Positions 8,578-43,530 of a stretch of 64,000 bases of DNA are shown here, one piece after another (the first letter of the stretch is position 1; the number at the start of each line of letters is the position of its first letter). The stretch is taken from contig BQMF02000048.1 in NCBI GenBank assembly GCA_027922465.2, forward strand, positions 62,001-126,000, read 5' to 3'. The notes under the pieces were generated by a model. It saw nothing but the letters and a program-made list of their open reading frames with translations. It was not told the DNA's origin and did no database searches. This DNA comes from Turritopsis dohrnii. Taxonomy: Eukaryota; Cnidaria; Hydrozoa; Anthoathecata; Oceaniidae. Position numbers and translations under genes: made by a program.

Positions 8578-9481
8578 TACCTTATCGGACAAAACTTAGT
8601 CGGACAAAAGTGACTAAATTTTTTGGAAGTGACTAAAATTTTGTCCGACTAATAATTTTTTCCGACTAAAATATTGTCCGACTAATTATTATGTCCGACT
8701 AAATATTTGGTCCAAGTCATTTTTTCAGAATTTTTCTTCTTATCAGTTTAATTACAATATTTTAAATATTTATAATTTCTTTATGATTTTTCTTTTTGCT
8801 AACCAACGAATACAATATTATGACTTAGTCATAAATAAACAATTTCTAAAGTGGTAAAGTGTTTTGATAAATAATATTAACGCTCGTCTTCATGATGTTC
8901 ATTGTTTACTCTCGACCCTTTCGTAAACAGATTGGATTTTTTAATAGCCTCGCTTATTCCAGGAAGGAATCCACAGGAAAAGAGAAAAGCAACGGTAATA
9001 ACAGAAACTTCCGATGAAAGTGATAGCGAGGTATTTCAAAAGAAAATGAAGAAGACAGTCATAATGGAAGAAACGCCTGAGGCAAATGCAGGAACCAAAA
9101 TAGATTTTTATACCGATCAGGAACATGACATTAAAATTGAAAAATAAAATTATACTACAACCCTTTTAATTAGGATTTTCTTCCGACGGCAAAATTGTAC
9201 CGTCGTGGGATGATGATTTTGTTGGACATTTGATTTTCACGTCGGCAAAACTGTTTTTATTAAATATGCCTTTTCCTTCGTTTTCCTATACATATCTAGA
9301 ACTTAGAGTAATATCGGCGCACTCCCACACGCTTTTTCATAATCCTTATCGAAAATTAAGTTATGAAATTTTAGAAAAGGACCAAAATTTTAGTCGGACA
9401 ATATTATTAGTCGGACAAAAGTGACTAAAATATTTGGAGGTGACTAAAATTTTGTCCGACTAAGTTTTGTCCGATAAGGTA
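8578..9481. mobile_element. TA-flanked DNA element with GTCCGACTAA subterminal repeats
   Basis: Terminal inverted repeats CCTTATCGGACAAAACTTAG start at 8580 and end at 9479, each bounded by TA (8578-8579 and 9480-9481). The motif TTAGTCGGACAAAA or its complement is repeated many times within about 120 bp of the left end and 100 bp of the right end. The 900-bp interior holds an 81-codon frame (8902-9147) with a Ser/Glu/Lys-rich sequence that I do not recognise. A TA duplication suggests the IS630/Tc1/mariner group. It sits at the truncated end of the reverse transcriptase relic. Confidence 0.75.
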
Positions 9482-11513: not shown

Positions 11514-12482
11514 TCTATATATTAATAGCCGATTCTCTGTCTGTCTGTCTGTTTGTTTGTTTGTTTGTAAGTCACGCAAAATGGTAGATTGAGTTGTGAG
11601 CTAAATTATTTCTTTTTTTGTGTGCGACGTGAGTTCGAAGCAAATACATTATTGCAACCCCAATCGAACGTGACTTTTTTTGGCTGATGAACTAATAGGA
11701 ATAACGTTTTATTTTTATCATTATTGTTAGTTTTATATTCCACGTTGACTTGGCTTTGAAAACAGTACATCAACTAAATACAAAGAAACTAACTGATTAA
11801 ACATTTTGGACAAAAAGCAGCAATGGCAGAACGTGGCAGCATATGTTCGGTTTGCCACTGACTCTTGGCTGACTGTCTGAGACGGGTGAACATTTCTTCT
11901 TTTAATTGTTAAGCGTTCTGATCGAACGTTTTTTTATTCTATTTATTCATTTAGCACGTGCCTTTTTTCTCTCCTCCGTGTGAACTTTTTAAGAAGAGAA
12001 ACCATTTTCCCCCTGTTTGATAGCACCCATGTTAGAGCGCGTAACGTTTTTAAAACAAAAGCTAATAAAAAGTTTTTTTCTCTCTACGTTTTGAGTGCAT
12101 TGATCAACGATTGTTTTAAAAAATAAATAACACATGAAATTTGGGTTTTTTTGGAACCATTGTTCAAACTGATATTTGATATTTGATTTCGAATCTGTCT
12201 CTAGGATAACTGACGTTTTTTCGGGTCCGCGATACAGGCGATGGGGTGACAAAAAATTTCGGTCTAATTTTTTTGGAAGGGGTCTGTGACGTCATCAAAA
12301 TCTTTGAAGAATGATATCTCTGTAACGGCTGATCGTAGCGGAACGATTCCATACATTTTTTAATCAGTTTTTCGAGCTCTACAACATGGGAACACTTTCG
12401 GTTGCCAATTCCTTAATTTTATTTTTCGTGAAGTCAACGCATGCTGAACATGGGCGGCGAGCGACGCCGCCTTGGCGGCTAG
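11514..12482 (+). mobile_element. Non-autonomous Helitron-like element, copy 1
   Basis: The element begins TCTATATATTAATAGCCG after an A and ends in a GCCGCC-TT-GGCGGC hairpin running into CTAG before a T. A 5' TC, a 3' hairpin with CTRR, A/T insertion and no target duplication are Helitron hallmarks. A CTGT/TTTG microsatellite follows the 5' end (about 11531-11567). A conserved interior block near 12190-12400 reappears in other copies (46 kb, 36 kb, 50 kb). There is no coding capacity. Confidence 0.75.
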
Positions 12483-18786: not shown

Positions 18787-18860
18787 TACCGTATTCTCTG
18801 TAATAAGCGCCCGGGCCCTTATAAAATTTTTTTAGAAATTAGGGGGGCGCTTATTTTCAG
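18787..18860 (+). mobile_element. Solo left end of the TACCGTATTCTC MITE family
   Basis: TACCGTATTCTCTGTAATAA followed by a GCGCCCGGGCCCTTATAA tract and GGGGGGCGCTTATT matches the left end of the complete element at 31191-32180. Here the copy breaks off where Helitron coding sequence begins. Confidence 0.6.
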
Positions 18861-18998
18861 AAACGTTCTTTACCTCATGCACATATTCTTATCCATTTAG
18901 CTCAAGAGGACAAACTGCAGAATGCTGATGATATTGACAGCTTAATTTCTGCTGAAATACCAGATCCTGAACTTGAACCAGAGCTACATAAAGGCGGG

Positions 18999-19066
18999 TT
19001 TCCACTTAAGCGAAATCGGTCGCGCGGGCAGCGCTGCCCGCGCGACCGCTTTCGCTTAAGTGGAAA
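18999..19066. repeat. Near-perfect 68-bp palindrome at the Harbinger left end
   Basis: The sequence reads outward from a centre between 19032 and 19033, with one mismatch in 34 pairs. It is GC-rich near the centre (CGGTCGCGCGGGCAGC). The outer part is the terminal repeat itself, so the left end carries a second inverted copy of its own tip. It would extrude as a stable cruciform or hairpin. Confidence 0.85.
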
Positions 19067-19118
19067 TTGATAGAAGTTTAAGAAGTGGCGCACTTTTTCA
19101 CAACTGCTAATTATAAAT

Positions 19119-19469
19119 ATGAATATGTCGAGAAGGAATTTGCTGATTGCTTTGATGTTAATTAGACGATCAAAGAAAAACGAAAAAAAGAAGAAAGCTA
19201 GAAGATTTTGGGTGAAACAGCTATACCAAGAGCGTCACAAAAAAGGAGAGTACCATTTACTCATAAAAGAGATGAAAATATTCGATAAAGAGTATTTTTT
19301 TCAACATTTTCGGATGACTCCAGCTAAATTTGAAGAACTGCTGTCGTTAGTAGAACCAAAAATAACGAAAAACTCAATAAAAAGGGAACCTATATCTCCA
19401 GGAGAACGATTATGCGTGACTCTTCGTTACTTAGTGACAGGGGATGCATTTGATAGCGGCGAAACATAG
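19119..19469 (+). pseudogene. Harbinger (HARBI1-like) transposase, N-terminal fragment
   Basis: About 116 codons encode a basic N-terminus, RRFWVKQLYQERHKKGEYH, an acidic-aromatic segment (DKEYFFQHFRMTPAKFEELL) and ISPGERLCVTLRYLVTGDAF. This is the conserved region upstream of the DDE_Tnp_4 nuclease in HARBI1-like proteins. The DDE nuclease itself does not follow; the frame ends at 19467-19469 and the next 2.7 kb is non-coding. Confidence 0.85.
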
Positions 19470-19879
19470 CTAATGCATTTTCTTCGGAGTTAAACATGTT
19501 TTCAGTCGACATAGTGGTAACAAAAATTAAAAAATTAAAACTATATTAAGAACTTTTCTTTAATTTTTTTAATTCTTTACTGACGTTTTTCTAGTTTAAA
19601 AAGACATAATAAAATATAAACTAGAAGCCTCAGGGCTTGAACAATTTCCGCATCAGGCCTAGAGGAAATAGCTTTAGGCTAATTTTTCAAGATATCTGAA
19701 TGGCTATCCATTCTGTTCTTGTTGCGTACGTGAGAACAGGTCTATCACAATTCCCAAAGTATGACTTATGGTTCACATGAAGAATAAAACGATATTCGAT
19801 AGAAGTGAACCAAAATCATTTGAAAATCAAGGAAAAATCAGGGAAAAATCTGCAAGTAACTGCCAACTTTAATATCAGG

Positions 19880-20165
19880 ACCTTTCAATTGTTATTGGAG
19901 CACACCTTCCAAATTTTGTCAGAAATGTGAATTCGGTAATATATTTAAGTAAACATTGTTGGTAATATATATTTAAATAAACATTGAAATTGTTCATAAC
20001 TTGCATTAATACGAGCAGGAGAAACTTGGGCATTTCAAAGATTTTAATCCATGACATTTAACAGGAATTACAAAAAGATAAAAATTATACATATATAACT
20101 TAAATCAACATAACATACAATACGAAAATCTATTTCTACTAAACTCGCCAGTGGCGGATCCAGAG
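19880..20165 (-). repeat. Dispersed repeat, inverted copy at 40650-40940
   Basis: The segment from ACCTTCCAAATTTT through GAAAATCTATTTCTACTAAA is present in reverse complement near 40655-40930 with moderate divergence. It lies inside the Harbinger element here and outside it there. Confidence 0.65.
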
Positions 20166-20312
20166 GTAAGCCACAACTTGTGTAGGAGAGTGTTAGCAAT
20201 TCAAACATAAAAGAAAAAGGTTCAAATAATCCCATTGATAACATGAACTGAATTCACAACTTATGTTAATGCGCTTCTCCACAAGTTGCGACTACACTCT
20301 AGATCCACCAAT
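20154..20312. mobile_element. Small hAT-like MITE
   Basis: CAGTGGCGGATCCAGAG at the left and CTCTAGATCCACCAATG at the right are near-inverted copies. A second inner pair (CACAACTTGTG and CACAAGTTG) follows. CAG..CTG-like ends with GGCGGATCC are common in hAT-type MITEs. A partial copy starts near 36545. Confidence 0.6.
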
Positions 20313-20437
20313 GTCTGCATATTACCACTTCTATGGAGTCTACAAATAACACCAATGTGCCCGAAGAGGCAAATAACACGATAAAACTTTGTTAGAATCT
20401 GTATGAAAATGTTTTTTTCGAACATGATATACCTTAA

Positions 20438-20822
20438 GGGGATTTTTTTGCGTGGACTAATTTTTGCGAGCCAAGGTTTGAGAGCGTTTTACGTGGATTA
20501 ATATTTTTATTTCAGAGCTTCTCAAGGAAAATGTTTGGATTTATATTTGCGAATGGGCACAAAATGCAATGTGTGTACTTTATAATATAGCTTAGAAGTA
20601 GCAGCAAAAATCACCATTTCCATGCCTGCCACATTGCAAAACCAATAGTTGCTTCATAAGTATATACAAGGAAATAGTTAATGTATGAAAGGTACGCAGA
20701 GCCAAAAAATGAGCAAATAAAATCATGAAATTTTGCGTGGATTTATTTTCGCGAATCGTTTATGTCTTGACGTTTTGCGTGGATTTATTGCAAAACTTAA
20801 TCCACGCAAAAAAAAAATCCCC
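20438..20822. mobile_element. TTAA-flanked MITE nested in the Harbinger element
   Basis: GGGGATTTTTTTGCGTGGA (20438) and the complement TCCACGC-A(10)-TCCCC (to 20822) form terminal inverted repeats. The flanks are TTAA on the left and TTAG on the right. Words related to GCGTGGATTWAT recur inside. The end resembles that of the larger TTAA-flanked transposon at 28144. Confidence 0.65.
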
Positions 20823-22198
20823 TTAGTGTATTGTGTCCTAGAACATATTACACTCCAAATTTTCACAAGGCTTTACTGATCTCATTGTATGTATATAATT
20901 GGTTGGAATCTAATCTTCATCCAAAAAGTTTGTTTTCCATAATCCAAACTAAATCATTGTGCCTCCATTGAGCGGTTTGCAGGATTATTTTGAACGATGT
21001 CATCTTAAAATCTTTTAAACGTGAATTTAAAACTAATCAGTTCCACACAAGTGATAACTTGACCGAGCATTGTACAGTGATGAATAATTTGATACAGTCT
21101 GGAATTCCCCAAATTGCTCCTTTCTTTAATTTATTACCGCTTTTCAATTCACTATGACGCTTCGAAGCCAGAAAAACAGTTTTATAAGACACATCGTTCA
21201 CCAATATCTTGCACATGTTTATACTTTCAGTATGTATATATATGTTTGAGTCAATAATTAATTCACTGTGATTTGTGCTGCAATGATAATTTCATTTGTT
21301 TTGTTTTTTTTTTCAATATCTTCAACTTTCGGTGTAATATTTATTAAATGAAATGAACATGTTTCATGCATTTATTGATAAGATGTATTCACCAGTAATG
21401 TTGATACTACTTCTCTGCTGTGATATTGAAAGTTTTTTTCACAGCTAAGTTTCGTTTACTATCAAACCTTCACCTTCTTTTTCAAGAATTTTTCCCAGAG
21501 TCAGCTAAACATCAATATTTCCTCCATAAGTAATGTTCTCATGATTATATTTCGATTGGAATAGTAGATAAAGTCTTAAAATTCTTCTTCAAAGCTTCTT
21601 CTACATCAACATCTTCCTTCACTCAAAACATAAAACAAATCGGTTCGAGAACGTTTCACGTGTTCGGTGTGCATATTTTACTGACTTTTTAAAGAAATTT
21701 TAAAGATAATTGAATTGGAAATTTTAAATATAAAACGGCTAAAATAACTTCTAAAAGTGTTTAAAAGTATAAAAAGCTTATTATTTTTTGCGAATTATTA
21801 TTGAAAATGGCCTTTTTGTATTACATTTTGCATAGAATTTTGGGTCTGTCATTAACTATTCTGAATAAACAAACAATCCGAAATCCGAACGGACTTTCCG
21901 AAAACAGCAAAAAACTGTTACGGAGAGAGAGAGATAGATAGAATGTCTAAATCAAACAATTTCCTACGCTAAGGCGCGGAAATTGAAAAAGATATAATTA
22001 GGCCAGGTGTATGTTTTATTTCCACGTGTGTATAGTTCATTCTGATTGGTTAAAAATGTAGATTTTCTTGAGCGAGCGATTTCGCACGCTCTAGAAGTTG
22101 AGTTGGCTTCAACTACAGAAAGCGACCGCGCGACCAAATGTATTGCATAATAATGCTCAAGTTTTTTAAAGTGAGCATGCGCAAAGTCGTGCGAATTC
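20823..22198. other. Non-coding interior of the Harbinger element
   Basis: No transposase remnant could be recognised in either strand. A minus-strand frame (21964-22212) overlies the right terminal region and is not supported as a gene. Confidence 0.35.
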
Positions 22199-24776
22199 GC
22201 CCGCGCGGCCAAGTTCGCTTAAGTGGAAACCCGCCTTAACATCATCAGATCATGTATGATTCATGGTCCCTGTGGGAATGCAAATCCTAATTCAGTCTGC
22301 ATGGGAGATGATGGCAACTGTACCAAGAATTTTCCAAAGCCATTCTGTGATGCAACCCAAATGAATGCAAATGGGTATCCAATGTATCGCAGACGCAATG
22401 ATGGTCGTACAGTGAGGGTCAAAAACGTGGACTTGGATAATCAATGGGTTGTACCATACTGCCCGTGGTTGTCAAAAAAATACAATGCTCACATAAATTT
22501 GGAAGCATGTACCACGATAAAAAGTGTGACACACTGCAAACCCTCCAATCCCCGTGAGTTGTGGAATACATTCAAGGAGCATCTGTGTGAGGACTACACT
22601 CGAACATTAGCTCTTGCCCAAGCAGAACAAAGAGCTTTGGGTTATATTGATAATGTCCTGAAACAATTCGGTATGTCCTTAACTCAATTTAATCTTCCAG
22701 AGTTGGTTCAACAGATCCCCGAGGAAGAAGTGGATGTAAATGTTTACATTGACAGGGCACAACAGGTAAGGCCTCAGCTTAATGAACAGCAGGTAGCTGT
22801 GGCTGATGCAATTTTGTCTGCTGTTTCAAATGTGCGTAATGGTTTAGCACAACTTGAAACATTGTTTTATCTGGATGGACCAGCTGGCACAGGTAAAACT
22901 TTTACATATAACTATGTTATTGCAGCATGTAGAGCCAGAGGTTGGAAAGTTGCAACTGCTGCATATACAGGTATTGCAGCCACCTTACTCTCTGGTGGAT
23001 GTACATTGCATTCATTATTTCGTTTGCCTGTTCCTGTTTTAGAAAACAGCGTATGTAAGATAACCCCGACATCTAAACATGCAGAATACCTTCGGAGTAT
23101 TGACCTGTTTCTGATTGATGAAGCTACAATGGTGTCTACGCACATTTTTCATGCTATCGACAGATTACTACGTGACATCTGCGGTAGTGATGCACTTTTC
23201 GGTGGAAAGGTACTTTTGTGGGGTGGCGATTTTCGTCAGTGTTTGCCAGTTGTGAAGAAGGCAAAACCAACTGATGTTATTGAAGTTTGCTTGACAAGTT
23301 CTGCTTTGTGGGCATCAGTGGTAAAGTACTCACTTACCGAGAACATGAGAGCCAGGCCGGAAGAACAAGAATTCTGTAGGTGGCTATTACAACTTGGTAA
23401 TGGTGAACTGCCAACAAAACAAAATGAACCTGCTAAAGGCTCAGGCGAAATCCCTGATTGTTGCGTTGTTCCCCAAAACACTTCTATTATATCGGTGATG
23501 TATGATGGTTTGGAACATCACGAATATGCCGTCACAGCTATTTTGACACCAACAAACGAGCAATCGTTAATCATTAACAATGAGATGTTGGACAGATTGC
23601 CAGGAAATGCAGTTTGTTACTACAGTGCTGATGAGGTGGTATGTGACGATGAAGACGAGCGGCAAAATTATCCACTTGATTTTTTAAATAGCATCACGCC
23701 GTCAGGTATGCCTCCTCATTGTTTGAAGCTTAAAGTTGGGGCTATTATTATGCTCTTGAGGAACCTTAATACCAGGAAGGGTCTCTGTAATGGCACACGC
23801 TTGATTATCCATGAACTGTCAGGCAATTTTATTAAAGCTGAAGTTTTGACAGGGTCAGCAGTTGGAGAAATCATTTTCATACCTAGGGTTGAACTGTCAC
23901 CTTCAGATACAGGTATGCCTTTTATATTGAAACGCAGACAATTGCCTATCCGTTTGGCCTACTCTTTCACTATTAACAAGAGTCAAGGTCAAACATTTAA
24001 TAAAATTGGTTTGTTTTTGCAGAGTCCGTGTTTCTCTCACGGTCAGCTATATGTCGCATGTTCCAGGGCAAAGGCATTTGATAATGTGAAAATCAAAGTT
24101 GCTGCTACTGGGAAACAAGGTTATATCAATGGAAAGATGTATACTCAAAATGTTGTCTTTCCACAAGTATTACAGTAACTTAATTCTGCATATCTTTCCT
24201 TTCATTTTTTCATATCCACAAAAGTATTGTATTGTTGAGTGAGTTACAAAAATACCGGAAATGAAAACACTGCTTTTCTGGTGAGCATTTTGATATCCTT
24301 ACTCATTTGGAGAGTGACTATCATTGCAGTTGTCTAAAAGCGGCTTTTCGGCTACGTTGGTATACCAACTATGTGACATTGTGTTGCTCAACTGTAGTGG
24401 TGGATTGAGTGGTGCTATTTTGTTAAATCACAGACAATTACTTTGTGGTAGTGCTGAAAATAGATGATATGCTTTTATTGTTACTGAACTATTTTACCTA
24501 AAAAACATTTTGTTTCTGTACATTTGTTTTTTTTAGGTGGAGTACAAGTCCCATTGACTTACGTTCACGTCGTGTACTCTGTTACCATGGGTTGTGCATG
24601 CTTTTTATCAATTCACCGGAAACAAATATCATCTTATTTTGGTTTTTTAGAGTCTTCTTTGTCCTTGCATGCACAAACCATGAACCAAAAGTCAGGGCAT
24701 TCATCCTGTTGTCTTTTTAGAAGTGTAATCCTTAGTTTTTTTTTCTTTTAGTGAATTAATAATAGTAAAAAAAAAA

Positions 24777-25743
24777 ATGGCTGCCTCAGCACAAAATGGT
24801 AATAATCTTTCTACTTTTTTTTCATTTTGAAATAAGAATAAAAAATGATTTTGTCACTCTTTTATTTTAGTTTCCAAAAACCCATTTGTGGAAAAAAGTA
24901 AGTATTTAGTTCTTTTCGTTATATTTGGGATTATTTATAAGGTTAATGAATGTCTTTCTTATTGTAGTTGAAGTCGACGGTGAAGAAGATGGTGGTAAGT
25001 TATCAAATGAAACTTAATATATACAAAAAAGAAAGGGTTGTCTATTTAGAACTACTTTCTTTTATATTTTAGTTGGTGATATATCCAAGAAAGGTAAAAG
25101 GACTTAATCCTTTATAAATACTAGAATACCATCAATGTAGTAATTAGGTGATTGATACATTTCCTTTCCTTTCAGAAGAAGAGGATTTATTAAGAGAAGT
25201 TAAGTTCTTATTTTCTTTTTGCTGTCTTTTGAATATTACTGTCAATCTATTGTAATTTCGTTTTATTTCATTCATAGATAAGGAGAATGGCGCAAATGGT
25301 GGTGGTTTGATATTTCCCTTCTTAACATGTAGAATGCACTTCAATAGATGTAGTATTTACACTGTGGGTCTTTTATGTTATAGGGCAGTTAGTCCAAGCA
25401 AGTGGCCAGAGTAAGCGTTTGCTTTCACAAATACATGTTGGCTCTTTACAGGGACTTGATGATATTTGCATTTTTAATTTTATCTTCCTGTTTAGAATCG
25501 CAAGAGACCACACGTTGTGAGTTGTGAAGTTTTTCATATAAGCCATACTATTTGGTTTTTTATTATCTTAACTGAACTTCCTAACTTTCCTTAACTTCCT
25601 ATAATTTTATTTTAGTAACAAGACAAGACTTCATGAATTATCGGAAGGTCCATCCTGGCTCGAAGTCCAGGAGGGCCTTCCAAATATGGAAGAAAAATGG
25701 GGGCCGTGACCGGGAGGGTTACGTCCCCCCACAAAAAAAATAA
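24777..25743 (+). CDS. Micro-exon gene, novel basic protein with HPG module
   Basis: Nine exons joined by GT/AG introns of about 70-105 nt give one open frame of about 104 residues: 24777-24798 (coding part; exon opens at 24752), 24871-24897, 24968-24994, 25073-25093, 25176-25198, 25283-25298 (donor could also be 3 or 6 nt later), 25384-25410, 25496-25516 and 25616-25743 (TAA). Seven internal exons are only 16-27 nt. All junctions are phase 1 except the 25198/25283 junction, which is phase 0. The N-terminal two-thirds is short and acidic (EVDGEEDG, EEEDLLRE); the last exon is basic, starting LTRQDFMNYRKVHPG and including KSRR and FQIWKKNGG. No signal peptide or membrane segment is seen. A last exon of the same pattern exists at 56320-56555 (-). 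I do not recognise the family. It lies 600 bp downstream of the Helitron helicase, so it could be a captured host gene or element-borne cargo. Splicing is inferred by eye. Confidence 0.62.
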
Positions 25744-25777
25744 AAAAAAATATAAAAAAGAAACATTATGAGATGAA

Positions 25778-25828
25778 GTATAAGGGGTCAGTCCTCACTG
25801 TTTTTGAGTGAGGGCTGATCCCTTATAC
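25778..25828 (+). terminator. 22-bp stem-loop 34 nt after the micro-exon gene stop
   Basis: GTATAAGGGGTCAGTCCTCA (from 25778) pairs with TGAGGGCTGATCCCTTATAC (ending 25828) around a 7-nt loop rich in T. The only two non-Watson-Crick pairs are G-U in the plus-strand RNA, so the transcript of the upstream gene could fold it completely. It may be a 3'-end RNA structure or the terminal hairpin of a mobile element; the terminator label is a placeholder for either. Confidence 0.6.
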
Positions 25829-26070
25829 GGTATGGAGTTACCATACACTCAGGTTCAGTTTTCATTAAAATTAGTTTTAAAATGTCTATAATCAAATTCT
25901 CGAAATGAAAAATAATCAAGTGAACTGAACCAACAAATTAAATTTAGACCGTGAATGGCTGATTAAGCCCACTTACTTAAGCTTCCGAATAGTTTTTCTA
26001 ATTTGTTTTTTAGGGAATAATGGGTTGTTTAATCAGTCATTTGCGATCGAGTGTATGGTAATTCCATACC
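25829..26070. mobile_element. Small MITE with self-complementary ends
   Basis: GGTATGGAGTTACCATAC..CTC at 25829-25850 is inverted at 26049-26070 with one difference. Each end is itself a short palindrome (GTATGG...CCATAC). A second inner inverted pair (AATGGCTGATTAAGCCC and GGGTTGTTTAATCAGTCATT) lies inside. Confidence 0.6.
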
Positions 26071-26084
26071 ATAGTTTATTTTAG

Positions 26085-26140
26085 TTTATTTTAGTTTATT
26101 TTAGTTTATTTAGTTATTGTAGTTTATTTAGTTACAAAAA
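26085..26140. repeat. TTTAGTTTAT-type short tandem repeat
   Basis: TAGTTTATTT is repeated about five times with small changes. Confidence 0.8.
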
Positions 26141-26969
26141 ATATGTTGTTATGTACGGATTACTCTTTATTTAGTCGTTACAAATCACTTGCGAATCTTA
26201 TTCTATAAGTCTGTTGTTATCTAAATGAGAGTTCAGGTAGAGTTGGAATACATACTTCCTTTGATCTTTATTTCACTATGTTTTGTGAAATGACATTACA
26301 GGTTATGGTTTAAGAGAAAACTTCTTTGTCAGTTTGAGAGATAACTATTCCTTAAAGTTAGTTCATTTAGTTTATTGAGGATAAAGAGGTTATTGTCCGT
26401 GTTAAAGATAATGAATGGAATATGCTGATGTCAGCAGAAATAGAACAATGGAGCGAAATGTAAATGAATAAATAAATCTTTCCTAACTGACAAAATTGAC
26501 TAACTTAATTCATTATCTTTAACTTATATTTATTCAGATTCTTTAGATTTATAGTATAGTATTGAGGTCAACTTGGTGTTGGTAGTTCATGGGAAAAACC
26601 TTTCCTGACAGTATCCTACGGATAACCGTATCTACTATAGTCTAGATAGCATTGTCAAGGTAATTGTGAAGGAAAGTTTAGTTGGAAGATATATTGTCGG
26701 CTGCACATTTCGGATTTTAAATTCAACCTTAACTTTATTTATTTATTTTTTTAGATTCTTTGGTTTCGCTTACGAATGATATGTCATCAATTTTTAAAAA
26801 TGCACTTTTCGGAAGATCCGATAAGTCCAACTGCATGCGTATGTAGATGCAATGCACCCACTATTCACCGAGAATTATCATTTCCAAGAATAAATGGATT
26901 AAACCAAAAAACGCATTGGAAGACCATTAACGAAGTCGATATACACTTTTACAAAAGTGATTAAAGATA
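26141..26969. other. No firm gene; one possible exon at 26755
   Basis: A pyrimidine tract and AG at 26753-26754 precede a short frame beginning SLVSLTNDMSSIFKNALFGR and ending at a TAG near 26850. It is protein-like but too short to assign. An overlapping ATG frame (26776-26964) has no domain. Confidence 0.25.
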
Positions 26970-27105
26970 CCGTAATGCATCGATTAAACGCCCCCTTCTT
27001 TTAAACGCCCCCCTCGCATAGACGCCTCCCCCCTTTTCAGGAGATTTTTAAATAAACGCCCCTCTCTATTAGACGCCCCCCTCGAATAGACGCCCCTCTC
27101 TAGAG
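26970..27105. repeat. GACGCCCCC-rich interspersed repeat
   Basis: TACCGTAATGCATCGATTAA is followed by several spaced copies of (G/A)ACGCCCC(C)CTC. Read in reverse, it resembles the GAGAGGGGCGYTTAT units of the TACCGTATTCTC element family at 31-32 kb. Confidence 0.6.
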
Positions 27106-27370
27106 ACACACTAATTAAGGCATGTAGAACTACTACATTGCATTGTTTCAGCCTCAATGTTTTCATTATATATTTCCCCATAGGGCGAAATATATGTTAA
27201 AACCGGCATTTTCCTTCTTCATCATCTTCTCCGTTCACTTTTATAGTCGCGGTTCGGTATTGAATTTTCGCCTAGCCAAAGTAGATAAGAACAGAGGCTA
27301 GCCTACAGCACGCCATTTTTTTCAGTCAGTGCAGAGCAGATGAACAGTGGAAGATTTTTGTTTTTTTTTT

Positions 27371-27830
27371 ATTAAATGCTTGGAGCAGTAAACCATTGAA
27401 GCTGTGATTTCAGTGAAAGGGTGAAAATTCACTAGTAAAAGCCACGCTGAAGATTTATTTTTATGTTACATCCTGGATAAATGTGGCCCAAACTGAACAA
27501 CACTGAAAGCACATGATGTACAGCCATTTAAAGGAATTATCCTTTTTATATGGAGCACATCCAGTTCAATCAGTTTCTTTGATTCATAGATTACATCACA
27601 AAAACTGCAAGTACAAACGTGACTGGTTATTAAATGCTTGGAACAGTAAACCATCATTGAAGCTGTGGTTTCAGTGCAAAGGTGAAAATTCATTATCAAT
27701 AGCCAGGCTGAAGATTTATTTTAATTTTACATCCTGATATAATGTAGCCCAACTGAACTGAAAGCACGATGCACCAGCCACAATAAAGGAAACCCTTTTC
27801 ATGTGGAGAACAACCAGTGTGTTAATTCAA
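27371..27830. repeat. Diverged tandem duplication, 258-bp period
   Basis: ATTAAATGCTTGGARCAGTA occurs at 27371 and 27629. GCTGAAGATTTATTTT and a TACATCCTG block follow at matching distances in both copies. Confidence 0.8.
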
Positions 27831-28143
27831 AAAGTACATACAAAAGCAGCAAGTAATGAAGCAATAAGAAGTCAGAAACTAATTGCGTATAATATTTTAA
27901 AACACAGGATTGAGACACATAATAACTTGACAGAATCTGGTCGAGTGTGCTTCCTTGGATAGTCATTTAATCCAACAACAGAAATGTAGTTTGCTATGGA
28001 TGAATTCCATGGTCACGTATACTGTTTTGATACTGTATATATCATATATTTTATTTTGCAAAATTTAATATATACTGTCAATTTTCCTGTACGAACAACG
28101 AACGTAAATCAAAACACAATACAAATGACAGTCTGTAAATTAA

Positions 28144-30926
28144 GGGGGAAACACCCTTTGGTGACTTTTTTTTTAATTATAATAAAAATGTAAATGACTA
28201 CAATCATGTTGTATAATATCAAAATCTATTTCAAAAAATGGTTCATAATGGTATCTGGTTGCCATGATAACCATGAAAACAAGTCTTAAAAGGAAAAAAG
28301 GTCTTTTATCCCGGGAAAGATATCTCTGGATTATAACATGCTCTGAAGCTCAAACTTTGTAAAGAAGTTTTAAAAAGGTGATTGTGCATTATGAATGATT
28401 TAGATTTTTGAAAATTTTGCTTCTGCTGAGTCAGCACTTCTTGAATTTTTAATGTTAGAAAACTTAGTGAGATTGGACATACTTTACAAAGTTAGAATTC
28501 TTCTTATCAAAATCTAAATCATTTAAAATGTAGATACAGATGCAATGAACTTCCACTGAAAATTTGGTGAAGTTTTGATTAGCCAATCACGAGATATCCT
28601 TCCCGGCGTACAAAAAAACTGATTCTTCAGAAATCACGTTTAAACACGAAAGAAGAAAAAAATGTTCTATATTAAATGAGAAAACCAGTTAAAACAACAA
28701 AATTACACATCTATAAAAGTGTAAAATATCTCAAATTTAAAATCCTCCAGGTGCATATGTTTCTCCTTCTTTCTCAGTGTCTTTATCTGATTTTTTTAAC
28801 CTTCGACCACGCAGAATCTTTCTTCGCAATTTATTTTTCGAATTGTTTTTGTATTTAGAACTTGATAAACGTTTATTATTCAAACGAGAACATCCATATG
28901 ACATATACTTTCCTGGAATCATATTCATGTTCTCATAAATAAGAACACTGGCTTTTCTGCCAATGTTAAAATTGGCCACTGCATCGTAAACACCCAGCTC
29001 TAGGTGAAACAAGGAAACATATTTAGATTTAGGTATCCGTTCCCAAATGGTAGCATTAAATGACTCATTTTGGTTTTGAGTGCGTCCATGCAAGCATTTC
29101 TGAAGTTGTTTATCTTCAGTTAGCTCTTCGAACATTGGTTTCAGCTTCAACACAATATCTAAAGGCAACCCAGGACCTGGCTTGTAGGTGTTAGTACTAT
29201 TAGCTTTGTCCTGGTTATATCTACACCAGCTTTCTGGACCTGTCGGACAGTGTGGAAAATGCCAGTTATTTTTTGCTGAAGAGCTTACATGAAATAATGT
29301 TGCTCGAGCAGCAGCCTGCATTTCTTTCACATTGCCAGCATTTTGTCGAATGGCCATGCCAAAATAATTTTGCAGCTTATCAATTGTTGACTCCGTTAAT
29401 TTTCCTCTTCTTCCTAAACCCTTCGTTGTTTTTTTCAATTTCCTGATACGTGAACCAACTCGCTTTTGGTAATGCCCTACACACTCCAATTTGGCTACTG
29501 TGTAGTTCTCATATATATCTTTAACAGCTGCATAGCTTTTTGTGTCACCATCTCCTAACATATTCGTGTAGCGCACTTTATTTTTTTCAATTGAACGTAA
29601 AAACATAACTTTCGTTCCTTCTTGCTCCATTCCAGGTGCAGATCCACGATAGGCGTATTTACACTTGTGCCCAACTTGCCAATTAGCATATGCAACTGGG
29701 TCAGTTTCTTTTAAATGCTCTTTAAGATTACAGGCTTTACAGGACCTAGCCATAGGCTCAACGTCTACAACTTTTCCGTTATCAAGGGAAATAGCAGTGA
29801 CGACACAATTGATTGAAGAGTATCCACGCTTTGTCCATGCACCGTCAACAGAAACTCCAATATTAGCAATGTCCATTTCATCTTTTGCAGCCTCTTTTCT
29901 TACTTCTTCAACTGCATCTGACATGGTTTCTTCAGCAACTTGTTTCGTTGCATTCAACAGAGACTCTACGACTTTATCGTAATTTTTCGTAGTCATCGGT
30001 TGTGGCATGTTCATTAATGCCATAAATTTCTCCATTCCCGAGTGTCCTTGTCCCAATGCTCTGAAAGTGTACACTGATCTGATGTTAACATCAAATCTCT
30101 TGCCCACTTTCTTTGATGTTGTAAAATTCTCTCTATAGTTGCAGTTGTTACACTGGATGAAAAGAGAAGAACATAAACCTTTTCGTGCTGACATATTTTC
30201 ATGCAACGTCAATGATTCCTGAAAACAAACACAACAAACCAACTTGTTGATAATTGATGACAGAATTTCAGTGTCTATTAGTCTATATCCAGTTATATTT
30301 TTGAATTTTCTTGGTGTACTGGAATTTATTTGCTGAACTTTGTGACTTGAAATTGTTTTCTTTGGAGTTGATGGTCCATGTTGTTTGCTCTCATCTGGAG
30401 TATGGGAATCTTCTACTTCTTCAGCAGTATTTACATCATTATCTACATGTCTATTTACATTATTTACAGATTTTGACCACGACGGCGTACCTTTAAAACC
30501 TTTTCTTTTCTTTCTATATACAGTTGATTTTTTTACACGATCAGACATGACAAAATTTTCACTTTTCTTCTAACAGAGTGACAACAACTAAAAGCATGGA
30601 TTTTCACTTTGCTACCTCTGTTACTCCAAAAATGTGTTTAGACTCGATAATACAAATCAAGTAGCAAAGTAGATATTAAAGGGTGGAAGAGATGTACTGC
30701 GAAAAGTACTTATTTTGGGGGGCTAAAACAAGATAAACAAACGGTTGCTATGGGCGTAACTAAGGAAGTGGTTACTACCTTGTATCACAAAAGTCTTTAA
30801 TTATCACTTTTCCGATACAATGATGAAAAAATCAATATGTCCATCGTATTCTACAGTGTTTAAAGTACCGAAAACCGTCAAAATCAAAATTTCGAAATTT
30901 TTACGAATTTTGGGGGTGTTTCCCCC
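28144..30926 (-). mobile_element. Complete TTAA-flanked transposon (Kolobok/Mutator-like)
   Basis: Exact 13-bp terminal repeats GGGGGAAACACCC (28144-28156) and complement (30914-30926) are bounded by TTAA on both sides (28140-28143, 30927-30930). The 2783-bp interior contains one intact minus-strand transposase gene. TTAA targets occur in piggyBac and Kolobok; the encoded protein is not piggyBac-like, so Kolobok or a Mutator-related group is inferred. Nothing seen in the ends or gene rules out activity. Confidence 0.85.
28737..30548 (-). CDS. Intact 603-aa Mutator-like transposase of the TTAA element
   Basis: A single uninterrupted frame encodes, in order: a basic Ser/Thr-rich N-terminus with an acidic segment; a cysteine cluster (about residues 100-135: CCVC ... 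CNNC) likely to bind zinc; SVDGAW (first catalytic aspartate, near residue 235) within NIGVSVDGAWTKRGYSS; a C-x(n)-C cluster (RSCKAC); MLGDGDTKSY (second aspartate region); a helical stretch with VGHYQKRVGSR; and GRTQNQNESFNATIWERIPK, whose glutamate is the likely third catalytic residue. The C-terminus is very basic. This order matches the Mutator-like transposase domain proteins (Pfam Mutator, PF20700) common in cnidarians and arthropods. The start at 30548 is the first ATG and the N-terminus is lysine-rich as expected. Expressed, it would be a nuclear DNA-cutting enzyme acting on the element ends. Confidence 0.85.
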   Translation of the reverse strand: MSDRVKKSTVYRKKRKGFKGTPSWSKSVNNVNRHVDNDVNTAEEVEDSHTPDESKQHGPSTPKKTISSHKVQQINSSTPRKFKNITGYRLIDTEILSSIINKLVCCVCFQESLTLHENMSARKGLCSSLFIQCNNCNYRENFTTSKKVGKRFDVNIRSVYTFRALGQGHSGMEKFMALMNMPQPMTTKNYDKVVESLLNATKQVAEETMSDAVEEVRKEAAKDEMDIANIGVSVDGAWTKRGYSSINCVVTAISLDNGKVVDVEPMARSCKACNLKEHLKETDPVAYANWQVGHKCKYAYRGSAPGMEQEGTKVMFLRSIEKNKVRYTNMLGDGDTKSYAAVKDIYENYTVAKLECVGHYQKRVGSRIRKLKKTTKGLGRRGKLTESTIDKLQNYFGMAIRQNAGNVKEMQAAARATLFHVSSSAKNNWHFPHCPTGPESWCRYNQDKANSTNTYKPGPGLPLDIVLKLKPMFEELTEDKQLQKCLHGRTQNQNESFNATIWERIPKSKYVSLFHLELGVYDAVANFNIGRKASVLIYENMNMIPGKYMSYGCSRLNNKRLSSSKYKNNSKNKLRRKILRGRRLKKSDKDTEKEGETYAPGGF

Positions 30927-30930
30927 TTAA

Positions 30931-31190
30931 ATCAAGCTGGAACACGAACTTCTACTTTGAGCTATGTAGTGATTTGGTTATGGATATGTATTTTCACTAC
31001 CAAAGTTTTTTTTTTCCATTTGGGATTTATATATGGTCATTTTTAGCACAAAATAAACAATGAAGTGAACATATTTTTTTGAAGAGAGATGTTTATTCTG
31101 AATATATACTTGAACTATTCTGTCCTAATTTGAAATGTTAACGTAATATTTGTTACTAGAGATTTTGATTGCTTTTGATAGTTATTTGCT
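30931..31190. other. Short AT-rich spacer
   Basis: Nothing recognised. Confidence 0.4.
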
Positions 31191-32180
31191 TACCGTATTC
31201 TCTGTAATAAGTGCGGGCCCTTATAATTTTTTTTTGGAAGTTAGGGGGGGGGGGGGGGGGGCACTTATTAGAGAGGGGTGCTAATTGGAGAGGGGCGCTT
31301 ATAAAAACATTTTGAAATGGTCATGCTAGCTGTGAACGAGGCATTGCTTTTTATCATAAAAGAGTAAAAACAACTGTATTTTTCATGGCAACGAAATAAG
31401 ATTTTGTACTTATAACTTAAATTTAGACATCACAAAAACATAGCCTTCCGTTTCTATTACAGAATATTCGTGTTTGGTGCAAAGTTCTAATTACCGCCCG
31501 GGCGCTTATAAATTTCTGAGTAATGTCTAGTCACTCTTTAAGCGCCCGGGCGCATATTGGAGAGGGGCGCTTATAAAAATATTTTGAAATGGTCATGCTA
31601 GCTGTGAACGAGGCATTGCTTTTTATCATAAAAGAGTAAAAACAACTGTATTTTTCATGGCAACGAAATAAGATTTTGTACTTATAACTTAAATTTAGAC
31701 ATCACAAAAACATAGCCTTCCGTTTCTATTACAGAATATTCGTGTTTGGTGCAAAGTTCTAATTACCGCCCGGGCGCTTATAAATTTCTGAGTAATGTCT
31801 AGTCACTCTTTAAGCGCCCGGGCGCATATTGGAGAGGGGCGCTTATAAAAATATTTTGAAATGGTCATGCTAGCTGTGAACGAGGCATTGCTTTTTATCA
31901 TAAAAGAGTAAAAACAACTGTATTTTTCATGGCAACGAAATAAGATTTTGTACTTATAGCTTAAATTTAGACATCACAAAAACATAGCCTTCCGTTTCTA
32001 TTACAGAATATTCGTGTTTGGTGCAAAGTTCTAATTACCGCCCGGGCGCTTATAAATTTCTGAGTAATGTCTAGTCACTCTTTAAGCGCCCGGGCGCATA
32101 TTGGAGAGGGGCGCTTATAAAATTTTTGACTAGAAGGGGGCGCTTACTGGAGAGGGGCGCTAGTTAGAGAGAATACGGTA
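31191..32180. mobile_element. TACCGTATTCTC MITE enlarged by an internal satellite
   Basis: TACCGTATTCTCTGTAATAA (from 31191) and GTTAGAGAGAATACGGTA (to 32180) form terminal inverted repeats, probably with TA as the duplicated target. Inside are an 18-G run (31244-31261) and three near-identical 272-bp units. A solo left end of the same family is at 18787. Confidence 0.75.
31287..32110 (+). repeat. Three near-identical 272-bp tandem units
   Basis: GGAGAGGGGCGCTTATAAAA starts at 31287, 31559, 31831 and 32103, exactly 272 bp apart; the last copy is only a start. Units differ by very few bases, so the amplification is recent. Each unit contains the pair CGCCCGGGCGCTTATAA and TTTAAGCGCCCGGGCGC, which can form a hairpin. 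Confidence 0.92.
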
Positions 32181-32916
32181 TGCAGATTTTACCTTTTAGG
32201 AATGCATAGTTCAACGAATTTAGAGTTGTCAATTTATATAAGCGTTCAGCCTTCAAGATTGAACATTTTAAAGCACGACCCAGCATGGTTGGGGGGAGGT
32301 TTACCTAACCTACTTTTCCGCGAGTGAGAAGAAAAAGCATAAGCGTATTTTTCGACGCAATTCCAACACATAAATTTGTTATAATATCACATTTTATTTT
32401 AAAATTTCAAATTAAAATATCTACAAATAACCCTTAGTTTTCACGCTCCTTGGCCTGTCTCAGATGTCTACAAACTCTAGAAATGTAAAGTAAAAGTATA
32501 TAATACAGTTAAAATGAAAAACCATAGCAAAATAAACAAGATGCCTTAAGAGGCATAAGGATTTCTGCAAGCTTTACTGGAAACCCAACAAAAATGCAAA
32601 GCCAGCAGCCTTGATTCGTCATGCAAAACTTACTAGGCAAACACATGGTTCGACAAGCATCATCAAAAAATAAACAAATCACAACTTTGGCTGTAAAGAC
32701 CAGTCTATATTAACAGAATACAGGGGCTCTTTTCCTTATGCCATTGTTGAAATCCTTTATAAAGATCTGTTTATGAAAATAAGCTGTATGATTGTTACAC
32801 TGGGAACTATTTATCACCACGTACTCCAGAAAATAGAAAAAAAACATTGACACGATACTTTAATTACAAACCACCAATAAGCATTATGGAAGCTATACAA
32901 GTAGGGCTTGTGTAAC
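32181..32916. other. No gene recognised
   Basis: AT-rich sequence without open frames of note or clear repeats. Confidence 0.35.
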
Positions 32917-33098: not shown

Positions 33099-35039
33099 TT
33101 GAATATTACCTCAAATTAAAATCTACTCTAAAGGTTGTTAATAACAATAGCTACGTAGGGAGAAAATAAATACCCATGATACCCATTTTTGTGATGTTGG
33201 AGCTGAAAGGAAGCTAAGCTGAGCTGTAGGAATCCAAAAGCTTAAAAAAAGTCGACTTCAGAGATGTATGTACACATACAAATACACAAAGGCTTTTCAT
33301 ATTTAGAAAGGCCAAAAATAAGAAATACCTTTTCTTCCACACCACGATTGTTTTTACATTACTTCGAGAGAGCTTCTTTTAAAAAACAGAATAACCACAC
33401 TGAAATTTAATTTTTCAAATATGATAAGTTTCCAACTGTGATGGATGAACTTTTTTATTTAAAGTTAAGAAATCCATATTTACATCATCTCAGAAACTTT
33501 TAGAAAACTAAGTAGCACGTTCCTTCGCTGCCATTTTTAAAACGTTTGGAAGACGATCACCACATGGCAAGTCAAAAAGTACCCGGATGATCACATGGCA
33601 CGGCGCAGATCAAGCCAATAAACTGTCGCTATTGAAGTTAAGGTGGCTATATTAGCACCCTTTCGTAGAAATCGGGCATTATGCACCAATCACGATTGAG
33701 ACGGCTTTTTTATGAACCAATGAAATTTAAGAAACAAAAATGCGTAGGTTTGGACAGTAAGATGAAAAAAAAAAAAACAGAAAAACACGGACGATCGTAA
33801 AGTATTTCTTGCTTACGCAGAAATCCAAAAACGCCTATTCTTCAGGCAATAAATAACAGTAAAGCTTTAAGTCGTGACCTGTTGCAGCCATGCGGCTTGT
33901 TTATTTATAAGAATACACTTTATAAGAATGTTCAAGATGAAGTTGGCCTAAAAGTTAAGAATGTCTTAAGAAAATTGCCATCTTAAGATTTTATGAGCTC
34001 AAAATTTATTTTGTCAGAATTTACTTTGTTTTATATGTAGGTGCTATTTCTTTTGTAATCATCAATGTAAACATTCTTTCACGTAACTGTCTTTTTAGCC
34101 TTTTCAGGTTTACCTTTTGTATAAGGCCTTAAGAATGTCTTAAGAATATGTTAGGATGATTTTAACTAAAAAGTTAAAAATATTCATCATGAAACCAATG
34201 TAATGAATACTACAGTGTAACAGCAACACGTAAAGTTGGAAGATGATGAACAAAATCGAAAGTTGATATTTGCCTACCTTCTTAAAACTACAGCCTACTA
34301 CGCTCGCTGTTGGGACAAAAAGCGAATCGATAGTAAAAAGGAACTAAAAATTACGTCAGGAAAGACGAAGTGTCTTATTATACTAATCCGCAATCGTGCA
34401 TACCACCATTATTTTAGAGTGTGTTTGTTTGTTTGTTTTTTAACGGTCAAAATCTTCTTCGTCATGTTCGTAAAGAGGCAGTTCCACAACGCAAGACACA
34501 TTCACGGGACATCTAACGTCAGTTTTTTTAAAGCCAATCAAAACGCAAGAAATTCTTTTTTCGCCGTTTTGATTGGTTGCTGAAAATCAAAAATCGATAG
34601 CAAAGGAATCCGTTAGTAAATCCGTTAGTATACAGACAGTTGCGCACAAAGCAGAACATGGTGAAAGGTCAATTTCTTATTATTTCTTATTTCTTATTAA
34701 GTAAACCTTTAATCTTCGATCAATACTAGGTCAAAATCAAGTCGGAAACAATGTTGGGAAAAAAGAAGTCTGTTTTATGTTTTTAAGCACCAAATGGTAG
34801 CAAGATTCAGTGGGAGAAAGCATATTTCAGTGCATGTACAGTAGAAACTTACTGGAAAGTAAAGGAAGTTTACAGAGGTATTCAGAGGTATTCAGTGCAT
34901 GATTACAGCAGAAAATGATCAGGTACCACCTCGCATAAGCATAAAAGCAGTTTTGCCAAAGGAAGAAAGCTGTTTTTATTCCATAAATGTAAAAAAATCT
35001 CAGACAAATTTCAGTAAAGAAAACAATTAAAGATAGCAG
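33099..35039. other. No gene recognised; Helitron-like debris at ~34210-34340
   Basis: The stretch around 34215-34330 (GTAACAGCAACACGTAAAG, then GAACAAAATCG and CTACGCTCGCTG) is related to 40370-40500. The 115-codon frame at 34236-34583 covers this repeat and has no domain. Confidence 0.35.
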
Positions 35040-37203: not shown

Positions 37204-37290
37204 TAGCCTCCCAGGCGGCGTCGCTCGCCACCCATGTTCAGCATGTGTTGTGTCGCAGAATTTAACTCGTGAAAAGTTTTTACAGGCATT
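37204..37290 (-). mobile_element. Helitron-like 3' end, head-to-tail with the previous element
   Basis: On the minus strand the sequence runs ...CATGGGTGGCGAGCGACGCCGCC and ends GGAGGCTA directly against the TC start of the element at 37203. Only the 3' ~85 bp is recognisable. Confidence 0.55.
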
Positions 37291-37514
37291 AATCTTTTAA
37301 TTCATTTCTTACATTCAAAAGATTTAAAACAGAAACAAATAGAAACATGGCTCAGAATATATATTTATAAGTAGAGGAGAAATAACTTTAATATAAAAAA
37401 ATGCAATATATAACACAGAACCGTTTACCCAGACATACAAAACCAAACATTGAATAACATTACAAAAATGATACCTTCCAACTTTTTCTTTTGTTCCAAA
37501 GTTACTACTGGACT

Positions 37515-38490
37515 GCAATCATTAATGAATTTTTGAAATGATATAGTCTGTTCTTCCCAAAACCATCAACGTCATGATTAAAACCATGAGTTTCATTTCT
37601 TTATGCTTTTTTATTATTGCTTAAAAGATTAATATTTCAATTGTAATACCGAAAACCTAATCATGCTATAAGAATATTGAAATAAACAACATAAAAAGAA
37701 CAAAAAATGAAATTCAAGTACGCATTTATCCTAAAAACAATAACTAAAAACAAAAATTTACCCAGAAGATAAAAAGTCACAAATAAAATCATAATGCCAA
37801 ACTTATATATATATATATACCCAGGTACGTAAACAATTACCATAACACAAAATAATGCATAAACATGATAAAATATAAACTTAAGAAAAATCCACCCAAT
37901 AACGCTTCGTTTTTGTAGGACAGTTTCATTGCACAGTAATAACTAATGAACTTCTTAAATACATAACCCATTCTTCTCTTAACTAACCCTCTCAGCGTCA
38001 TAATTTAACCCACCATGTTCTTCATTTCTATTTTAACATATGAAAATATTTAAAAAACATACAAAAAACCTATAATCATACTATGACGAAATCGAAAGAA
38101 AAACAAAAAAAACTGAAAGAAACTTTGAAAACATATTTACCTTAAAAATAATAATTAAAAACACAAACGTAATGACAGAATTTGTGTAGCTAAAGAATTT
38201 TTAACATATGAAAACATTCACATATGTGGAACCATCTTTTATTTCAGTTCAAAGCTCCTCCTGAGTAATTCAAAACACACAGTAAACATCCTTCTTATCC
38301 TTTTCTTATCCACACACTGTGTTTTAACTAAATAGATACCATTTTAACTTTGGTTTACCTTTCAATACCAATTCACATCATCATGTTAGTAAATGATATT
38401 GATCATGTTCTATAGCCATTATCACACACTTCTAAACTCTTTACTTTTTAACACTCGATTTACTTCCCAGCATACTTTCCTGAAATTCCA
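37515..38490 (-). repeat. Right arm of the long inverted repeat
   Basis: This is the reverse-complement partner of 35040-35770, somewhat longer because an internal unit appears duplicated (about 37645-37790 and 38055-38180). The loop between arms (35771-37514) holds the MITE and Helitron-like insertions. Confidence 0.6.
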
Positions 38491-39489
38491 CTACCATTTT
38501 TATACACTGAAAGGCATAAATAAAGAAAAAGATTTCAATGCATAACAGTGACAGTGGTGGTGGCAACGTCTCCTTGGATGTTGTTTTCTAAACTTCATAA
38601 CTGTGGAGCCATTTTGAAATAAATAAAATAAAGAACAGCCAGTTCGTTACCAAAACAAATCAGTAACTGTTCGTAGGGCATGCAACTTTTTGATCGTTTT
38701 AACTCTGTTTTTACTATCTTTTAACGCTGTATTTACTAAATGCGTTTGACTCATTTACTTACGTATATTACTTTGTATCTTTTCCAAACGTTTTCCCACC
38801 GAAAAGAAGTAAAACCATTTTCACCAATGTAAATAAACATCATCCTTTCTGCAGCGATTTTTAAACAACTTCACTTTAACTACACTACTTCACTGCTGCA
38901 CTCTCATAACTATTTGATAACTATAAAAAGAAATACGTAGAATCGGCACACGTTTCTATCGTAAACATCATAGAGACTTTCTTCCACTCGTTCTTCGTAT
39001 GGTTTTCCTCTGAAAAAACCTATTATATAAAAAACAAACATCTGTTCAAAAACTCACTTATTCACTCACTTATACCTGTTCTTTTATTAATCTAAAATAC
39101 AATAACAGTAAATGTTTAGCAATAAACACGATAATAAAACGTTTTATAGTAATAAAACATTCGTATGTATACAAACCTGTGTTTCTTCGTCAAATTCACA
39201 ACGAAGAAATGAAATCATTATTAACGACCGAAATTTTTGGAAATCGTCAACCAATCAAATAAGCGCATTTGAAGAGTTTTCTTTTATTAGCCAATGAAAA
39301 CGATCAGCGGCGGGGCTTCCCCATATACTATTCGTAAAACTACTATGTAGCTTTAGCTAAAAATACCCCCGCGCTCAAGCATTCCAATTTGTACAGACAG
39401 CAAGCTATACATTAACAGCGGAAACGAAAACAAGTTTTTGGCCGAAAAAACAATGCTTGGGTTGATTTGGGACCTGATATGAGGCAAAG
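38491..39489. other. No gene recognised
   Basis: AT-rich. The frame at 39112-39297 has no domain character. Confidence 0.35.
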
Positions 39490-43463: not shown

Positions 43464-43470
43464 TATAAAT
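43464..43470 (+). promoter_or_regulatory. TATA box of the opsin gene
   Basis: TATAAAT lies 61 bp upstream of the ATG at 43531. Transcription would be expected to start near 43495, giving a short leader of about 35 nt with no upstream ATG. Confidence 0.5.
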
Positions 43471-43530
43471 GACTGGTGTTCACAACAACAACTTTCATTT
43501 CAACTGCGACACTCCATAGATCACGTCAAC

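Follow-up and report, generated by a model that had tools for sequence, protein, structure and literature searches.

A 64,000-nt stretch of the genome of the hydrozoan Turritopsis dohrnii (contig BQMF02000048.1, positions 62,001 to 126,000; hereafter "the window") contains a gene that is split almost entirely into tiny exons. Comparison with its copies elsewhere in the genome indicates that this micro-exon gene is real and that it is carried by a transposon, as an accessory gene in a family of autonomous Helitrons. The initial annotation of the window had described the series of exons, but its multi-copy membership in a Helitron was overlooked. The predicted protein has about 105-125 residues and comprises an acidic, fast-changing part encoded by phase-1 micro-exons of 18-36 nt and a conserved, basic C-terminal module of ~40 residues.

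We searched the T. dohrnii genome (435,911,712 bases in 891 contigs; TUR_r2.0.1 is described as 891 primary contigs and 435.9 Mb, PMC9835754) with the 42-residue terminal module of the gene and obtained 150 matches (the best 150 of 701 candidates), nearly all of them free of stop codons. A second terminal-module query also gave 150 matches (the best 150 of 702 candidates), and the two queries together mark at least 189 distinct places. The sequences around the copies can be aligned across a Rep/helicase gene (RepHel), the micro-exon gene and a 3' tail, which places the micro-exon gene 3' of RepHel in a Helitron family of ~9.0 kb. At 112 of 150 matches to the RepHel C-terminus (the best 150 of 1380 candidates) the same strand carries a listed terminal module no more than 6 kb downstream, at a distance of 1.5-4.7 kb (median 1.8 kb for these 112 cases), while at two of the 150 a listed module lies within 6 kb on the opposite strand. 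Two of the 38 RepHel matches without a listed same-strand module were examined, and both hold the gene with a damaged terminal exon.

An intact element is found in locus L020 (positions 53-9070), starting with TCTTATTAT at 53 (TC at the 5' end) and ending at 9070 with the hairpin GCCGCC/GGCGGC and CTAG. Its RepHel open reading frame of 1179 aa contains Helitron_like_N (PF14214, 4.7e-56) and PIF1 (PF05970, 1.1e-54), and by eye we read in the translation LPHAHILI and KYLFKYVYKG, which we take to be the HUH and tyrosine motifs of Rep. The 3' end was reached in eight of 12 loci examined, and in all eight CTAG is followed by T; the other four (L010, L011, L024 and L027) stop earlier or differ at the 3' end, and in L049 CTA is followed by the TC with which the next unit begins. 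The family shares with autonomous Helitrons that carry accessory genes a RepHel with Helitron_like_N and PIF1, a 5' TC, and a 3' hairpin with CTAG followed by T. However, the accessory genes named for Helitrons in PMC5148889 are RPA-like, OTU and endonuclease, while the gene described here is none of these and is split into micro-exons. Head-to-tail Helitrons, in which a 3' end is immediately followed by a new 5' end, were observed in L020 (9054-9115), L012 (8360-8421) and L049 (minus strand, 445-505), and the module matches in contigs C257, C28 and C11 recur at about 9.25, 3.4 and 3.9 kb.

The initial annotation had proposed seven internal exons of 16-27 nt, each with a GT donor and an AG acceptor and nearly all joined in phase 1, but listed no borders; the version tested was a reconstruction with 16-27-nt exons, in which 24752-25743 holds nine exons with GT/AG borders in one continuous frame, the first with the ATG, seven of them internal and the last terminal. 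TTTTAG stands directly before the ATG, a possible trans-splice acceptor. All exons lie on the plus strand: exon 1 (24777-24798, with the start codon and an end in phase 1), micro-exons 2 (24871-24897, 27 nt), 3 (24968-24994, 27 nt), 4 (25073-25093, 21 nt), 5 (25176-25199, 24 nt), 6 (25278-25304, 27 nt), 7 (25384-25410, 27 nt) and 8 (25496-25516, 21 nt), and the terminal exon 9 (25616-25743, stop codon included), which encodes the module TRQDF..YRK.HPGSKSRRAFQ.WKKNGGRDREGYVPPQKK. The introns in the window measure 69-99 nt. Exons 1-4 and 7-9 stand as reconstructed, but the borders of exons 5 and 6 had to be moved by comparison with other copies. One base beyond the reconstructed border of exon 5, 17 of 19 non-redundant copies have GT, L002 has GC, and the window copy alone has TT, so that exon 5 is normally 24 nt long, and the assertion of a GT donor at every micro-exon does not hold for the window itself. 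In subfamily B, exon 6 follows an ATAG acceptor and ends before GTTTGA, hence the equivalent exon in the window is probably 25278-25304, and a 16-nt version of it was replaced by this 27-nt one; chained automatically from the window alone, the exon comes out as 25278-25301. With both borders corrected, every junction is in phase 1 and the frame is continuous over 107 codons. The observation of a micro-exon series is in this sense partly confirmed, and the interpretation that accompanied it is partly supported.

We considered whether the series might be a product of chance, with GT/AG pairs arising in AT-rich DNA and a hairpin-rich stretch behind them being open by accident. The last exon in the window is indeed largely open in more than one frame and strongly folded. 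Nevertheless, when candidate exons of 12-39 nt were chained using generic, approximate splice-site weight matrices with a stop-free frame as the sole demand, the stretch 24871-25516 scored 37.0, a value reached by none of 300 dinucleotide shuffles (mean 6.9, maximum 21.9). The best score outside the gene among 248 half-overlapping tiles on both strands was 24.9, at 23461-24480, which is mostly coding sequence from the end of the RepHel gene; with a stricter setting on the plus strand the two halves of the gene rank first and third, and a RepHel stretch second. The shuffles, combined with the conservation of splice sites among copies, rule out chance splice sites. The frame-preserving indels and splice sites of the copies, described below, already speak strongly against such an origin, and we assign it a practically negligible probability.

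For the comparison of copies, 49 terminal exons were found (L001, a repeat of the window, was excluded), and the second match in the window and 11 incomplete or rearranged genes were dropped. Among the 38 genes with both ends, L026 (a longer form) was set aside, 37 were aligned, and removal of near-identical sequences gave the set of 19 copies. In this set, 132 of 133 internal exon instances have a length that is a multiple of three, the exception being exon 5 of L046. Relative to the window copy, indel events are multiples of three in five of six cases in exons versus eight of 32 in introns (Fisher P 0.012). The acceptor AG is kept in 19/19 copies at all eight acceptors. The donor GT is likewise kept without exception at exons 1-4, 7 and 8, whereas one of the 19 copies lacks it at exon 6 and two lack it at exon 5; stop codons or frameshifts interrupt three of the 19 readings (L016, L028 and L046). 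Since both frame and splice sites are conserved among the copies, we infer that the transcripts are spliced. The proportions of nonsynonymous and synonymous differences (pN/pS) are 0.115/0.219 for exons 1-8 pooled and 0.053/0.167 for exon 9, although single short exons vary, with pN exceeding pS in exons 1 and 7. Judged from these sequences, the basic C-terminal module is under constraint, and the division into an acidic variable N-terminal part and a basic C-terminal module, made in the initial annotation, is borne out.

The gene is preceded by a structured leader (24536-24708, plus strand), comprising a three-way-junction stem (24536-24583), a long stem (24586-24601 paired with 24667-24682) and a conserved block with CATGAACCAAAAGTCAGGGCAT about 200 nt upstream of the ATG. 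Its 25-nt core, GTACAAGTCCCATTGACTTACGTTC, shows 0-2 mismatches in 42 of 43 matches and six in the remaining one (places fetched twice included); it is present in 44 of 54 sequences and missing in ten, two of which (L032 and L037) have a complete gene in the part that was aligned. The fold calculated from 14 sequences suggests the three-way junction and a second stem, with double-sided changes in five of 29 predicted pairs (three of them in the single diverged copy from the window) and a small covariation term of -0.43 kcal/mol. The leader holds ACUUAC, complementary to GUAAGU splice donors. It was also seen in L049, L050 and L051 and, as a diverged copy of its first stem, at 56905-56958 (minus strand) of the window, upstream of a second family member discussed below. 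Rfam gave nothing above gathering scores in 24000-27000, and the leader could belong to the mRNA, form an RNA of its own or act as a DNA element.

RNA structure is predicted in the terminal exon as well, where two strong hairpins (25643-25681 and 25699-25729, plus strand) were found. None of 800 synonymous recodings of exon 9 from the window is equally stable; measured against such recodings, the terminal-exon fold has z scores of -4.0 to -6.1 in subfamily A (four copies) and -2.8 to -4.9 in subfamily B (two copies), with a weaker excess in C, D and E (-1.4 to -3.1, one copy each) and none in F. These hairpins pair differently from subfamily to subfamily. They had suggested that the terminal exon might be a structural RNA only, which we rejected, as the protein is kept with synonymous changes. 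Past the stop codon lies a further hairpin of 22 bp (25778-25828, plus strand), and the same stretch occurs in the aligned copies of subfamily A; by eye, L024 has no such perfect hairpin at that place. It was considered as the 3' end of the Helitron and discarded, since the copies align for more than 1 kb further and end in another hairpin with CTAG. An inverted repeat (25826-25850 and 26049-26073, with 198 bp between the arms) follows, and was recognised by eye in L024 and L025, too.

Automatic chains in L024-L027 (subfamily B) and in the distant L049 contain 5, 9, 8, 10 and 8 internal exons, and all 40 of these are in phase 1, while in L050 and L051 the phases are mixed. Including the seven of the window, of which two borders were set by comparison, all 47 internal exons of six copies are divisible by three and measure 18-36 nt (mean 25). 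Some of the units formed by an exon and its intron resemble one another: units 8 and 9 of L027 are identical at 95 of 123 positions (score 64 versus at most 18 for shuffled units), units 5 and 6 of L025 resemble units 7 and 8 (33-37 versus at most 18), and units 3 and 6 of L049 share 73 of 105 positions (33 versus at most 18); the best pair within the window copy reaches 21 versus 14. The gene evidently lengthens by copying exon-intron units that measure about 100-170 bp and have both ends in the same phase. Demonstrable variability in these sequences lies between genomic copies, in the form of exon duplication, in-frame indels and fast substitution. Between subfamilies A and B (seven versus four copies) the divergence amounts to 0.503 in exons 1-8, 0.333 in introns and 32% in exon 9, as compared to 0.070-0.084 in RepHel, 3% in the first leader stem and 29% in the variable leader loop, and every one of exons 1-8 is more diverged than its flanking introns. 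Within subfamily B there is a small excess of exons over introns (0.075 vs 0.049).

The initial annotation recognised no relative of the protein, and none emerged from our searches: Pfam returned 0 families for the whole protein and for five C-terminal members, PDB sequences matched only at E 0.14 or worse, and the 103-aa protein with the borders as first reconstructed had no match outside its own genome at E <= 10. A profile search beyond the genome gave one weak candidate, a 73-aa JGI protein, P0001 (E 1.3), which shares HPGP..NGGRD.PGF; its value of 3.1e-14 with another query is circular, P0001 being a row of that query. One scan of viral contigs revealed no relative. AlphaFold, run on the second window member together with two other rows, predicts helices at residues 3-12 and 22-29 (predicted local distance difference test, pLDDT, about 70-78) and a disordered tail; the C-terminal module is perhaps a pair of helices.

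The second, diverged family member in the window is represented by a terminal exon at 56341-56553 (minus strand), which follows a TTTCAG acceptor, is entered in phase 1 and encodes LSYEDYLKYRVDHPGPSSRKPYGKWKELDG... with an RG-rich tail. It is not visibly inside a Helitron, and its peptide matched at least 120 places when the best 150 of 499 candidates were scored. Helitrons capture genes, and the numerous diverged relatives, including this one, would agree with a host gene family that was captured and is carried passively, retaining the gene structure of its host parent. Such an origin appears unlikely to us, as frame and splice sites are kept across the copies and the leader goes with the gene in diverged families too; moreover, no host parent was identified in searches of the animal's own genome with the module and the peptide of the second member, the only ones made for it. 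Another distant member, L049, directly follows the 3' end of one Helitron and the 5' start of the next (445-461) in contig 11, where the tandem period is 3902 bp, and keeps eight phase-1 micro-exons. No RepHel occurs in the part of L049 that was read, and the unit exceeds a RepHel gene only slightly in length, hence L049 looks like a non-autonomous Helitron that retained the micro-exon gene.

As the best explanation of these data as a whole, to which we give about an even chance of being correct, we propose that the gene is a Helitron accessory gene whose nuclear protein serves the element by countering host silencing. The protein would act in the nucleus for the Helitron, where its C-terminal module would attach to nucleic acid or chromatin while its acidic part makes contact with a fast-changing partner. 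By analogy to VANC, which acts for VANDAL transposons, it might thereby counteract the silencing of Helitrons by the host, and micro-exons that are all in the same phase would allow the acidic part to expand without loss of frame.

Several observations weigh against this proposal. The Pfam searches of the whole protein and five C-terminal members detected no silencing-related domain, and the mean pLDDT of the AlphaFold model is 59. The ratio of nonsynonymous to synonymous substitution rates (dN/dS) is below 1, the pS of the micro-exons (0.219) exceeds the divergence of seven introns taken singly (0.062-0.196), and within subfamily A exons and introns are alike (0.108 vs 0.105). As synonymous sites share the excess seen in exons, positive selection on the protein is not proven; the alternatives to it are intron constraint, exchange between elements and selection on RNA. 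Furthermore, synonymous divergence in RepHel is 0.315 between A and B and 0.05 between B and C (C being one sequence, 107 codons), while in exon 9 it is 2.3 and 1.7, respectively (each pair offering about 28 synonymous sites; L028, with its extra codon, is excluded). Given this disagreement, the gene may have been exchanged between elements, and it seems to be either older than the RepHel backbones that carry it or exchanged between them.

Other roles for the protein have to be weighed against countering of silencing. RPA-like proteins are thought to help transposition directly in other Helitrons, and a small basic protein might likewise aid RepHel by binding single strands or ends, or by targeting. 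The module is basic, the gene adjoins RepHel in most scored copies, and it is kept in the short RepHel-less element L049, which might be moved in trans. A replication helper, however, need not diverge far faster than RepHel, and neither Pfam nor PDB yielded a relative with a meaningful score; we regard this role as possible but rather unlikely. By analogy, a small, fast-changing, multi-exon gene that is kept in copies with and without RepHel could also be a selfish two-component gene of the toxin/antidote type, whose splice forms provide the two functions; the argument is one of analogy, no hydrophobic segment lies near the N-terminus, and we hold this idea to be highly improbable.

It is also conceivable, if quite improbable, that the micro-exons themselves are the counter-defence, i.e. 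that the spliced mRNA escapes silencing aimed at the element. PIWI-interacting RNAs are 24-33 nt long according to PMC9923473, and the micro-exons of 18-36 nt are about as short, so a small RNA derived from an unspliced copy in the genome would seldom find a full-length match in the spliced mRNA. The product shielded in this way would be a factor countering the silencing of the intronless RepHel. We note in this context that the one long exon is unusually folded and that the micro-exons change faster than introns between subfamilies.

The copy of the Helitron in the window is itself broken and, to judge from its sequence, dead. A RepHel fragment (18855-18991, plus strand; 100% identical to the Helitron in L020, L012 and L018) is separated by an insertion with 39-bp inverted ends (18991-22237) from a remnant with the PIF1 helicase part (22237-24178, plus strand; PIF1 Pfam 4.1e-55). 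Compared with the 1179-aa RepHel of L020, this remnant has a gap of about 650 bp at 22527-22529, and the missing part includes the segment with KYLFKYVYKG. Downstream of the gene, alignment with the copies extends the Helitron through 25744-26968 (plus strand) up to about 26968, where a Mutator-type element (transposase PF20700) begins, and no Helitron 3' end was found behind this insertion in the window. The Mutator-like element (26968-32181) carries its transposase on the minus strand and also contains a GC-rich repeat of 17 nt in arrays as well as a 272-bp triple repeat. L017, L019-L023 and L028 have a related insertion that starts at this very site of the Helitron. More Helitron ends are present in the window at 37204-40622 (minus strand), 34375-34459 (plus) and 12412-12482 (plus), the first of which may be a 3.4-kb non-autonomous copy. 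Apart from mobile elements, the window encodes a single-exon opsin-like receptor (43462-44511, plus strand; 7tm_1, 1.4e-24) with a lysine five residues before NPIIY, presumably the spacing of the retinal lysine.

Among known systems, the initial annotation had pointed to the micro-exon genes (MEGs) of schistosomes, which produce secreted variants. MEGs have many tiny exons, mostly multiples of three, introns that reach about 5 kb, and a signal peptide that is kept, as described in PMC10526429. The likeness lies in the many tiny internal exons with lengths divisible by three (here 132/133 in 19 copies) and in the symmetry of the micro-exons. Here, however, the gene is mobile, its introns are short (69-99 nt in the window), and its N-terminus is not hydrophobic (9-residue hydropathy of at most 0.32 within the first 31 residues of four proteins, no signal-peptide predictor having been run). 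Secretion is therefore unsupported, and a gene of the schistosome type, making secreted variants through exon skipping, is extremely unlikely.

VANC of the Arabidopsis VANDAL transposons resembles the Helitron gene in being transposon-encoded, in combining conserved domains with variable regions that contain tandem peptide motifs, and in its diverse exon-intron structures, as reported in PMC5735166. The two differ in transposon class, kingdom and domain set, the domain DUF1985 named for VANC in that report having no counterpart among the 0 Pfam families of the whole protein and five C-terminal members, and for the Helitron gene the function is inferred only. The parallel would be one of function and not of descent. 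To the known equipment of Helitrons, the present family adds a fast-changing accessory gene with a domain outside Pfam and a conserved structured leader. Among the titles we found on micro-exons, Helitrons and cnidarians, none reports a Helitron-borne micro-exon gene, most subscription papers being outside the coverage. The many copies at graded distances make the birth, duplication and decay of micro-exons readable in one genome, and because T. dohrnii is an animal of rejuvenation studies with published RNA-seq of nine stages (PMC9835754), the splicing is testable at once.

In gene architecture, the closest parallel is found in the bicycle genes of aphids. These are characterised in PMC9168663 by numerous, very small internal exons that nearly always begin at codon position 2, by about 17 exons on average and by rapid protein evolution, and many of them are strongly expressed in salivary glands. 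Small internal exons and the same junction phase throughout are common to both (here 40/40 in L024-L027 and L049, with L050 and L051 mixed), while bicycle genes are host genes with about 17 exons, and the likeness is one of gene architecture. Same-phase micro-exon genes are known from a few host families, such as the schistosome MEGs and the aphid bicycle genes, whereas the gene described here is borne by a transposon.

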